From NCBI GenBank assembly GCA_029907475.1, contig JARYLU010000008.1:1-64000 (forward strand): 64,000 nt of DNA. The letters run 5' to 3'. The notes under the pieces were generated by a model. It was not told where the DNA came from. It ran no database searches and saw only the letters and a list, made by a program, of their open reading frames with translations. Of the stretch, positions 41,081-45,168 are shown piece after piece. The position numbers and the translations under genes were made by a program. This DNA comes from Bacillota bacterium (GTDB lineage Bacteria; Bacillota; DSM-12270; Thermacetogeniales; Thermacetogeniaceae). Position 1 is the stretch's first letter; every line of letters begins with the position of its first letter.

Positions 41081-41704
41081 TTATTTCGCCAGGGTCCAGT
41101 CGGGTGCAACGGGCTCGAGCGTTCCCATGTGTCCCAGAATGCTTTCCTGTTTCTCCCCCTCTAGAAGGAACTGCACTTTTTGGATACCGGGGAGCTTACA
41201 GAGCGAGTTCACAACCGACCAGAGGGTCATCCTTTCTCCCGCCGAGCCTCCCCAGTGGTTGATTTTGAATTCCTTTGAAAGGTTGACATAGGCCACACCA
41301 CTGACCACCGAAACCGAGAGGAGCCTGGTTCCCCGGGGGATGGTTGCCTGCAGTCCTGGTTTTTGGGGTCCCCGGATTAACTCCTGGAGCATAACCGCCT
41401 CTAGTGGTTCGTCTTTTACCGTGACTTCCCGCTCCTCCGGAACCAGGTACATCGCCTCCCTATCGGCGAAGAAAAGGGTTACCTGTTGTTTTACCGCGCG
41501 GGGTTTCGCGCTGATTTCAGGATGGTCCGAACCGGTTTCCGGACCGCCTTGGTTTTTCCCCGGTTGCTCTTCCGGGGTGGTTTCCGCGGTCCCCGGTTTT
41601 TGCAGGGACCCTCCCGTTTTCACCGGCTCCCGGCTGCAACCTGCCGTGATTAAGAGCCCCACCAGCATCCCCAGTAAAATCAGACCTGCAATACAGCGCC
41701 TCAT
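41081..41704 (-). CDS. GerMN-domain lipoprotein
   Basis: A 207-residue protein with a lipoprotein signal (ITAGC, lipid Cys at 23), a low-complexity Pro/Gly/Glu linker (about 25-70) and a C-terminal GerMN domain (VTLFFADREAMYLVPEEREV, then GVAYVNLSKEF and GERMTLWSVVNSL). GerMN proteins are linked to spore germination and the outer face of the membrane. The truncated histidine kinase lies directly upstream on the same strand; kinase-GerMN pairs are common in Clostridia. Confidence 0.85.
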   Translation of the reverse strand: MRRCIAGLILLGMLVGLLITAGCSREPVKTGGSLQKPGTAETTPEEQPGKNQGGPETGSDHPEISAKPRAVKQQVTLFFADREAMYLVPEEREVTVKDEPLEAVMLQELIRGPQKPGLQATIPRGTRLLSVSVVSGVAYVNLSKEFKINHWGGSAGERMTLWSVVNSLCKLPGIQKVQFLLEGEKQESILGHMGTLEPVAPDWTLAK

Positions 41705-41744: not shown

Positions 41745-42206
41745 TTAAGAGACCCCCGGATCTGTTTCGCAGGCGTCAAGAAGGGACTGAGCCAGGGCCT
41801 TGATGGAGCTTAAAGGGGTCTTTAGTTCGTGGGAGGCGTCGGCAAGAAACTGCCGCCGCGACCTGTCCACCGCGGCCAGTTTATTGCTCATGGTATTAAA
41901 GGCCGCGGCAAGTTCGCCCAATTCGTCCCTCCCCTGAACAGGCACTTGCTGTCCCAGGCGGCCCTGTTCCAGCTGTCGTACCGCCCGGGTCAATTCTTTC
42001 ACGGGGAGGGTAAGGATACCGGCCAGGAAGAGGCTGTAAAGGGCGGCCAGGAACCCGCTTACCAGGGATGCCAGGAACATCCGTCCCCGAATCTCCGCCA
42101 GGCGCTCCCCGATATCATCCAAACTTGCCACCAGGAGGACCGCCCCGGCAGGAGCTTTACCCTGCAGCACCGGAGCGGCTGCGTATAGGGTGACAATATC
42201 ACAGAA
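41745..42206 (-). pseudogene. Truncated sensor histidine kinase
   Basis: The frame opens after an in-frame TAG at 42207-42209. It encodes the end of a sensor domain (CDIVTLYAAAPVLQGK), one membrane helix, a HAMP domain (RAVRQLEQGRLGQQV) and the HisKA H-box FLADASHELKTPLSSIKALA, then stops after ACETDPGVS. The first helix and most of the sensor are missing, and the whole HATPase catalytic domain is absent. About 153 residues remain of the expected 450 or more. It cannot autophosphorylate. The GerMN gene follows by 40 nt. Confidence 0.8.
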
Positions 42207-42231
42207 CTATAACATCAGGGATCGTGAACTG

Positions 42232-42260
42232 TTGACAGGTGGCGCGGAATCACGTATAAT
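42232..42260 (+). promoter_or_regulatory. Consensus sigma-A promoter for the leuS leader
   Basis: TTGACA (42232-42237), 17-nt spacer, TATAAT (42255-42260): a perfect match to consensus. It would transcribe the T-box, the embedded tRNA-Ala and leuS. Confidence 0.9.
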
Positions 42261-42473
42261 AAAGTCGATTTGTGAATTGTTGAGGTCGACACGAGCTGCG
42301 GCTTATGATAAATGCAAGGAAAGGGAGTAGTAGGTCAACCCGGAGCCTACAGAGAGCCGGCGTGACGGGGTGCGAGCCGGTGGCCTGCCGGGGGCCGAAC
42401 TCGCCCCGGAGCAGCGCCGGTGATGAGCCGGTGCCGTTGCAGGCGTTAACTGGAAACGAGTGGGTAAATACGT

Positions 42474-42548
42474 GGGGCTGTGGCGCAGTGGGAGCGCGCT
42501 TCCTTGGCATGGAAGAGGTCGCGGGTTCGACTCCCGCCAGCTCCACCA
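42474..42548 (+). tRNA. tRNA-Ala (anticodon GGC), inside the leuS T-box leader
   Basis: A complete cloverleaf of 75 nt with encoded CCA. Acceptor GGGGCTG/CAGCTCC with the alanine identity pair G3:U70; T8; D-arm GCGC-AGTGGGA-GCGC with G18G19; anticodon arm CTTCC-TTGGCAT-GGAAG, anticodon GGC; variable loop AGGTC; T-arm GCGGG-TTCGACT-CCCGC; discriminator A. All invariant bases are present, so it should be functional. No own promoter is apparent between the T-box stem I and the tRNA. Confidence 0.95.
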
Positions 42549-42586
42549 GTTTATTTGCCAAGCTGGGTGGTACCGCGGGAAGTTCT

Positions 42587-42625
42587 CTCTCCCGTCCCTT
42601 CAGGGGGCGGGAGAGTTTAATTTTT
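42587..42625 (+). terminator. T-box-controlled terminator before leuS
   Basis: CTCTCCCGTCCC (42587-42598) pairs with GGGGCGGGAGAG (42604-42615) over 12 bp, loop about TTCAG, then TTTAATTTTT. Its 5' arm includes the CGTCCC strand used by the antiterminator. Confidence 0.9.
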
Positions 42626-42657: not shown

Positions 42658-45168
42658 GTGGAAGGCAGATACAATTTTCGACTCGCAGAGAGAAAATGGC
42701 AGGAGCGCTGGGAACGGGAAGACGCCTTTCGGGTGACCGAGGACCCCTCTGTTCCGAAGTTTTATTGTTTGGAGATGTTTCCTTATCCTTCAGGAAATTT
42801 ACATATGGGTCATGTCCGCAATTACGCCATCGGCGATGTCGTGGCGCGTTTTTACGCAATGCAGGGTTTCAGGGTACTGCATCCCATGGGTTGGGATGCT
42901 TTCGGCCTCCCGGCGGAAAATGCTGCGATCAAGCACGGGATTCACCCAGCCAGGTGGACCTGGGATAACATTGAAAACATGCGCCGCCAGTTGAAATCCC
43001 TCGGCGTCAGCTATGACTGGTCCCGCGAGGTCGCCACCTGTCACCCTGACTACTACTGCTGGACACAGTGGCTCTTTTTGCAGCTTTATCACAATGGCCT
43101 GGCGTACCGTAAGAAGGCCGCGGTGAACTGGTGTCCCGCCTGCGCAACAGTCCTGGCCAACGAGCAGGTCGTGAACGGGGAGTGCGAGCGGTGCGAGACC
43201 GGGGTTGTGAAGAAGGATCTGGAGCAGTGGTTTTTTAAGATCACCGACTACGCAGACCGTCTCTTGAGCGACCTTGAGAAGCTCACAGGGTGGCCCGAAA
43301 AGGTCAGGATGATGCAGGAAAACTGGATCGGCAAAAGCAGGGGGGTAGAAATCAGGTTCCGCGCAGAGAGTGGGAGTGAGATTCCGGTTTTTACGACCCG
43401 CCCCGACACGATTTACGGTGTGACTTACATTGTCCTCGCCCCGGAGCACCCGCTTGTGGAAGAGATTCTGAAAGCTCAACCCGATGCGGGCGGAGTCAGG
43501 GACTTCGTCGAAAAAGTCCGGTTGCAGAGCGAAATTGACAGGACCTCCGCAGAAACGGAAAAGGAGGGGGTCTTTACCGGAACTTACGCTTGCAATCCCT
43601 TGAGCGGGGAGCACATTCCCATCTGGGTTGCGAACTATGTGCTGATGGAATACGGGACCGGCGCCGTAATGGGTGTGCCTGCCCACGACCAGCGTGACCT
43701 GGAGTTTGCCCGGAAGTACGGGTTGCCTGTTAAGGTCGTAATCCAACCCCTCGGCCGGGACCTGGATCCCCATACCATGGAAGAGGCTTATACAGAACCG
43801 GGCTTAATGGTGGACTCCGGGACATTCAGCGGCATCGACAGCGAGGTTGCCAAGCTGAAAATCACCGCCTTTATTGAAGAAAAAGGGCACGGCCGGGAGC
43901 GGGTTAACTACCGGCTCCGGGACTGGCTTATTTCCCGGCAGCGCTACTGGGGAGCGCCGATTCCGATTATCTACTGCGAGTGCTGCGGGATCGTTCCCGT
44001 CCCCGAAGCAGACCTCCCCGTCCTTCTCCCGCTGGACGTGGAATTTGAACCGACCGGAGAATCGCCGCTCTTAAAAGCTCCGGACTTCCTCCAGACCAGT
44101 TGCCCTGTTTGCGGGGGGGCTGCCAGGCGCGAAACCGATACCATAGATACCTTCGTCTGTTCCTCCTGGTATTTTCTGCGCTACTGCAGCCCCTGTGAAG
44201 GTGAAAGGGCATTTGATCCGGAAAAGGTAAGGTACTGGATGCCGGTGGACCAGTACATCGGTGGGGTGGAACATGCCATTTTGCACCTGATGTACGCCCG
44301 CTTTTTCACCAAGGTGCTTTACGACCTGGGGCTTGTCCCGGTGGACGAACCCTTTACCAACCTCCTTACCCAGGGGATGGTTTTAAAAGACGGGGCAAAG
44401 ATGTCGAAGTCGCGGGGAAATGTTGTGAGCCCTGAAGAGATCATCGAAGCTTACGGCGCGGATACTGCCCGTCTTTTCATCCTTTTCGCGGCACCCCCGG
44501 AGCGTGACCTGGACTGGAGCGATCAGGGCGTTGAAGGAGCCTTCCGGTTTATCAACCGGGTCTGGCGCCTGGTAGCCAGCCTTGCGCCTGAAGTTCGCGG
44601 AGGAAGGGGCCTTGCTTTAAACGTCAGGGATTTGAGTCACGACGACCGGAACCTACGGCGGGCTACACACCGGACGCTTCAGAAGGTCACCGAGGACATC
44701 AGGGCACGCTTCAATTTCAATACAGCAGTCAGCGCCCTGATGGAACTCGTCAACGCTCTTTACCATTATCATGATCAGGTCCCGCCGGAACAAAGAAACA
44801 AAGGGGTTCTGCGGGAAAGCATTGTAAATCTCATCCTGCTGCTGGCCCCTTTTACCCCCCACCTTGCCGAGGAGTTGTGGGAGGTTATCGGAGAGCCGGG
44901 GAGCGTTCACAAGCAGCAGTGGCCCCCTGTCGATCCTTCGGCTTTGGCTGTTGAAGAAATTACCATCGTCGTACAGGTTAACGGGCGGGTGCGCGACCGG
45001 CTCCAGGTTCCGGTAGGGATGGATACCCGGGAGATGGAACAGATGGTGCTCGCTCAACCGAAAGTTCAGGCCCTGATTAAAGATAAAGAACTCCTCCGGG
45101 TGATTTCCGTACCTGGAAAACTGGTCAACCTCGTGGTAGGCGAGAAAACGGTGGGGAAAGTTAAGTGA
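42658..45168 (+). CDS. leuS: Leucine--tRNA ligase
   Basis: Class I synthetase charging tRNA-Leu, 836 residues. HIGH-type signature [16 protein letters not shown] near 41-56, CP1 editing domain ([20 protein letters not shown]), zinc-type Cys pairs ([17 protein letters not shown]), catalytic signature [10 protein letters not shown] near 581-590, and a C-terminal UNE/tRNA-binding domain. Start GTG 42658 with GGGGGG upstream. Controlled by the T-box described above. Its last bases overlap the ogt GTG by 4 nt. Confidence 0.98.

Follow-up and report, generated by a model that had tools for sequence, protein, structure and literature searches.

How can a riboswitch, which must stay whole, share one transcript with a tRNA, which must be cut out? 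These normally opposite needs meet ahead of leuS in the window, by which we mean the whole 64,000-nucleotide stretch of a Bacillota genome that was analysed. A first-pass annotation had reported a tRNA-Ala gene within the leucine T-box leader of this gene, and we analysed the parts of the leader, their conservation and their spread among genomes.

A complete tRNA-Ala(GGC) gene inside the leuS T-box leader

All features of the leader lie on the + strand. A sigma-70-type promoter, TTGACA-17-TATAAT (42232..42260), matches the consensus at 12/12 positions and is the sole strong promoter ahead of the leader. With the tRNA as an insert, the T-box leader (42308..42602) matched the Rfam model RF00230 from end to end (model positions 1-219) at 94.8 bits, the gathering score being 93. 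The specifier codon CTC (42400..42402) reads Leu, is cognate to the downstream leuS and matches the anticodon of tRNA-Leu(GAG), a tRNA that the genome encodes and whose ACCA end is complementary to UGGU (42568-42571) within the T-box sequence GGGTGGTACCGCGG (42565..42578). The discriminator parts are present as GAGTG-stem III-AA and the UGGU core, with the RRRNG purine motif GAGTG (42458..42462) 5' of stem III and a conserved AA (42560..42561), common to the relatives, 3' of it. A competing intrinsic terminator follows as a hairpin of 13 pairs and then a T run (42587..42615), and leuS begins with a GTG start (42658..45168), the open reading frame encoding a leucyl-tRNA synthetase of 836 aa that also served as the LeuS query in relatives. 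Contained within the RF00230 match, a complete tRNA-Ala(GGC) (42474..42548) was identified by ARAGORN and by Rfam (RF00005, 68.9 bits), with a cloverleaf, the GGC anticodon, an encoded CCA and the alanine determinant G3:U70. The embedded gene reported by the first-pass annotation is thereby borne out, and the promoter, CTC specifier, core and terminator that it had named were each found in the sequence.

Divergent from leuS, the segment at 41748-42220 on the - strand appears by eye to be a histidine kinase remnant with HAMP and HisKA-like sequence. The space up to the neighbouring gene, assigned by eye to a GerMN-like lipoprotein (41081-41704), is too small to hold an ATPase domain.

In the assembly (3.01 Mb, 99.65% complete), the embedded gene was the sole tRNA-Ala(GGC) gene found among 46 tRNA genes. 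Because it is the only one of the 46 with a GGC anticodon, its tRNA is expected to be functional in the cell, that is, excised and charged. The gene is probably essential. The determinant G3:U70 is kept in 126/126 CCA-ending embedded tRNAs across relatives. The 46 tRNAs of the assembly did not include a tRNA-Ala(TGC), whose gene may be located in unassembled rRNA operons.

The tRNA occupies the apical loop of stem III

The first-pass annotation had placed the tRNA between stem III and the antiterminator. Instead, the apical loop of stem III contains it, with the stem still flanked by the RRRNG motif and the AA. The 5' strand GGTAAATA (42463..42470) pairs with the 3' strand TATTTGCC (42552..42559), so that the tRNA forms the loop with a 3-nt linker on each side. 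In the minimum-energy fold of the leader, stem III is present and the acceptor stem of the tRNA lies on top of it. According to two published accounts, the RRRxG-stem III-AA segment is part of the aminoacylation sensor, and the stem and loop of stem III are variable (PMC7583486; PMC7778990). Ten T-boxes were found in the genome in all, and the others have ordinary short stem III loops wherever the motif is readable.

The same arrangement in other genomes

We scanned 84,980 species for the T-arm and CCA of any tRNA with a T-box core 3-33 nt downstream, and at least 120 matches were obtained. Among the 120 matches listed, ARAGORN assigned 114 to tRNA-Ala, every one with the anticodon GGC. The other six comprised four truncated or gapped copies of tRNA-Ala(GGC) and two sequences that were rejected as tRNA-Ala leaders, L056 being a tRNA piece at a contig start and L149 a chance match in other sequence. 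Complete or truncated copies of tRNA-Ala(GGC) account for 118 of the 120 matches listed; almost all of them precede leuS, and LeuS was found downstream in 113/119. Their hosts belong to Bacillota, Chloroflexota, Thermomicrobiota, Armatimonadota and Atribacterota, and cultured ones include Carboxydothermus islandicus, Desulfovirgula thermocuniculi DSM 16036, Syntrophomonas wolfei subsp. methylbutyratica, Ktedonobacter racemifer DSM 44963, Dictyobacter species, Desulfofundulus and Desulfotruncus. The search of related genomes proposed in the first-pass annotation was likewise positive, with a homologous leader throughout the window's family and in other families of its phylum.

When genomes of the window's phylum were drawn evenly, the any-tRNA pattern was present in 65/398, as it was in 9/201 genomes in the phylum of Ktedonobacter racemifer, both counts being lower bounds because core variants and tRNAs without an encoded CCA (e.g. 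in genome G027) are missed. The reversed-pattern control gave 0/398 against the 65/398, which rules out chance adjacency of tRNA and T-box core. An assembly error was ruled out by the occurrence of the same join in independent assemblies, including those of type-strain isolates. A bias of the pattern towards Ala through its CCA requirement was ruled out for this genome, in which 46/46 tRNA genes encode CCA and the scan pattern therefore does not favour Ala.

Several leaders deviate in other respects. The embedded tRNA-Ala of genome G027 (L034, 1554-1627, - strand) lacks an encoded CCA, ending ...CTCCAC and then ACTGATC; it would require CCA addition and escapes the scan pattern. In Ktedonobacter racemifer (L157, 6316-6388 and 6692-6764), a second tRNA lies about 300 nt upstream of the embedded one. 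The leader is also present on contigs of metagenome-assembled genomes labelled as Proteobacteria (L057, L148), Desulfovibrio (L112) and Aneurinibacillus (L119), whose LeuS groups elsewhere; these contigs are probably misbinned or mislabelled.

The T-box parts are conserved around the tRNA

To follow the T-box parts, we assembled 127 distinct tRNA-embedded leaders. The specifier context GAACTCG[CT]C was exact in 99/127, and most of the others, on reading, have CTC in a shifted context, so that the CTC specifier is nearly invariant in the 126 readable relatives. The RRRNG motif was present in 120/126 leaders and the AA 3' of stem III in 125/126. In 12/12 chosen relatives, among them Desulfovirgula thermocuniculi, Carboxydothermus islandicus, Syntrophomonas wolfei and Ktedonobacter racemifer, RF00230 positions 1-219 were matched across the tRNA, and 7/12 scored above gathering.

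The pairing of stem III was evaluated with a test anchored on RRRNG and AA, in which consecutive pairs were counted from the anchored base and partners were permuted. In 31 representatives sharing <75% LeuS identity, stem III gave 5.48 pairs against 2.17 +- 0.26 for permuted partners, with 0/5000 permutations reaching 5.48, and in 12 representatives at <65% identity it gave 6.08 against 2.54; permutation counts overstate independence owing to shared ancestry, and both the 75% and the 65% sets still pass, while the 60% set holds four representatives, too few to test. Both strands have changed at several positions, as in the variants GGTAA/TTACC, GACAA/TTGTC, GTTAA/TTATC, AGCAG/CTGCT, GACCG/CGGCC and GATCG/CGATC. 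By the simple test, stem III is weak or short (<=3 consecutive pairs from the anchor) in 27/119 leaders. The energy of a free leader-trailer duplex was rejected as a stem III test for being too unspecific (matched -10.2 vs mismatched -7.5 kcal/mol).

The first-pass annotation had suggested that the amino-acid logic could be lost. Leaders from different phyla have kept CTC, both flanking motifs (RRRNG and AA) and a stem III that covaries, and the logic does not seem to be lost; this conservation argues that leucine sensing is under selection, as would be predicted for a working sensor. Conservation across phyla of the whole architecture, from the promoter through stem I with CTC, the tRNA-bearing stem III loop, the sensor motifs and the terminator to leuS, is firmly supported by the comparison of sequences.

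Relatives that lack the tRNA or the T-box

Of 30 genomes without the tRNA pattern, about half carry an ordinary leuS T-box that lacks the tRNA; its stem III loop is short or of modest size and lies at the same place as the tRNA insert. Several of the 30 have neither a leuS T-box nor an embedded tRNA. In some relatives (L037, L039), a stand-alone tRNA-Ala(GGC) with its own promoter was seen elsewhere by eye. Conversely, two leuS leaders (L026 of genome G010, and L151) have no recognisable stem I and keep the tRNA-Ala, the stem III flanks and the antiterminator; they are natural deletions of the sensing half. In the leuS leader of genome G012 (L203/L031), the specifier and the T-box core have decayed, and the tRNA-Ala and a terminator-like hairpin remain. 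In decayed leaders it thus appears to be the tRNA that survives and the T-box parts that decay. Since relatives with the T-box only and relatives with the tRNA only both occur, the tRNA is separable from the switch and vice versa, and neither needs the other in principle.

These incomplete leaders bear on the reading that the locus is a tRNA-Ala gene with an accidental leuS attenuator, its T-box being a relic that has lost the leucine logic. Some relatives without stem I or the core do keep the tRNA, and processing would part stem I from the antiterminator if stem III did not keep the two together. A relic, however, would lose CTC, RRRNG, AA, UGGU, the stem III pairing and the terminator, all of which are kept at phylum-scale distances, and we regard this reading as very unlikely.

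When 127 rows were placed in a LeuS tree, tRNA-embedded leaders fell on both sides of the deepest supported split, which separates Bacillota and Atribacterota from Chloroflexota, Thermomicrobiota and Armatimonadota; T-box-only rows are interspersed, and 13 changes are needed. One old insertion followed by losses would best fit the constant tRNA type and site. Alternatively, leuS may have been transferred together with its leader.

Transcription and RNase P processing

In the window, no well-scoring promoter was seen in the segment from stem I to the tRNA, in line with the single promoter ahead of stem I that the first-pass annotation had described. Among 120 leaders, 105 have a promoter site matching at >=10/12 positions, mostly 140-230 nt before the tRNA and hence ahead of stem I, and a >=10/12 site within 110 nt of the tRNA was found only in L026 and five Ktedonobacteria. 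The earlier claim that the supply of tRNA-Ala is tied to transcription of the leuS leader also stands, as there is one promoter and no further tRNA-Ala(GGC) gene was found in the genome. With the tRNA encoded ahead of the terminator, its synthesis would depend on the promoter, whichever way the leucine read-through decision falls. That the tRNA has a promoter of its own, and is merely adjacent to the T-box or joined to it by misassembly, could be read from the promoter-like sites near the tRNA in the five Ktedonobacteria and the one stem-I-less leader. We consider it highly improbable, given that the sole strong promoter precedes stem I in the window and in nearly all relatives, that the tRNA is enclosed by stem III, whose two strands covary, and that isolate genomes carry the same join.

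Excision of the tRNA had been expected to cut the sensing domain away from the terminator. This was too strong: RNase P would cut within the loop of stem III, whose helix is retained and can span the two ends left by the cut. Pairing of the leader close to the cleavage site hinders RNase P, as do the dinucleotides G(-2)U(-1) and G(-2)G(-1), which slow the E. coli enzyme (PMC9433436). One of these dinucleotides occurs in 70/127 leaders vs 15/46 tRNAs of this genome, a background high enough that we rejected them as proof of delayed cutting; delayed cutting of the embedded tRNA is thus a suggestion.

A stronger role for the tRNA would be that of a second or timing input, with RNase P cleavage, AlaRS binding or tRNA folding in stem III altering antitermination, so that leuS would answer to the maturation of an alanine tRNA as well as to leucine. 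Stem III is a leader-trailer helix directly at the RNase P site, the slow dinucleotides are frequent, and UGGU could pair with the ACCA of tRNA-Ala as well. Moreover, the tRNA is always tRNA-Ala(GGC), no other recognisable complete tRNA having appeared among the 120 matches listed from a scan open to any CCA-ending tRNA. The single tRNA type, however, is explained by one old insertion frozen through the need for the tRNA, G(-2)U(-1) is also common in the other tRNAs of the genome (11/46), no conserved extra element was seen beyond stem III and the tRNA, and the specifier is Leu and not Ala. Overall, such a two-input or timed switch seems unlikely. Equally doubtful in our view is its fuller form, in which the embedded tRNA-Ala would be a working part of the switch, the fusion of stem III and tRNA would delay or gate RNase P, leuS would respond to leucine charging as well as to the maturation of tRNA-Ala, and the arrangement would go back to an ancestry shared by the Bacillota, Chloroflexota and Armatimonadota lineages.

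A probable composite transcript with two outputs

We therefore favour, as the probable reading, a composite transcript in which a leucine-sensing T-box carries tRNA-Ala(GGC) in its stem III loop and has a dual output, a tRNA precursor and a leuS switch. Each transcript from the promoter would yield tRNA-Ala, as the tRNA precedes the terminator. Uncharged tRNA-Leu(GAG) would stabilise the antiterminator and let RNA polymerase proceed into leuS, and charged tRNA-Leu would lead to termination, the terminated RNA then being a tRNA-Ala precursor. RNase P and 3' trimming would open the stem III loop only. Two ways of reconciling cutting with sensing can be envisaged. The decision might come first, the decision point lying about 140 nt after the 5' end of the tRNA, or a few seconds of transcription; or stem III might keep the sensor together as two strands after cutting. 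Retention of the tRNA in the leader would follow from its being needed and frozen in place. Against the composite transcript, RNase P could act before the antiterminator forms, and two strands joined by 5-9 pairs may sense aminoacylation poorly.

The supply of one alanine tRNA is thereby wired to the leuS promoter, in an arrangement that spans phylum-scale distances and always joins tRNA-Ala(GGC) to a leuS leader. It makes testable whether a riboswitch works during or after cutting, how RNase P competes with the transcription decision, and why one tRNA has been retained for long in one switch. In practice, many genomes will have overlapping annotations of a T-box and a tRNA.

Comparison with known systems

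A search of the open-access literature yielded no published tRNA gene inside a T-box, which agrees with the earlier statement that no such case was known; the tRNA-embedded T-box has apparently not been described so far, and priority is not certain. A 2020 review reports insertions of unknown function in every T-box domain, including stem III, as well as tandem T-boxes, and in the parts of it that we consulted a tRNA gene is not named among those insertions (PMC7583486). Compared with a transcriptional leuS T-box (RF00230) without an insert, the leader described here has the same stem I, CTC specifier, RRRNG-stem III-AA segment, UGGU core, terminator and leuS. The stem III loop of the former is a few to a few tens of nt long, whereas here it is a complete tRNA gene of another specificity. 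Genes for tRNAs also occur within mRNA and rRNA operons, for example in rRNA spacers, where the tRNA is excised from a longer transcript and flanked by a leader-trailer helix. Here, in contrast, the flanking helix is part of a sensor of aminoacylation, and what the tRNA interrupts is a riboswitch.
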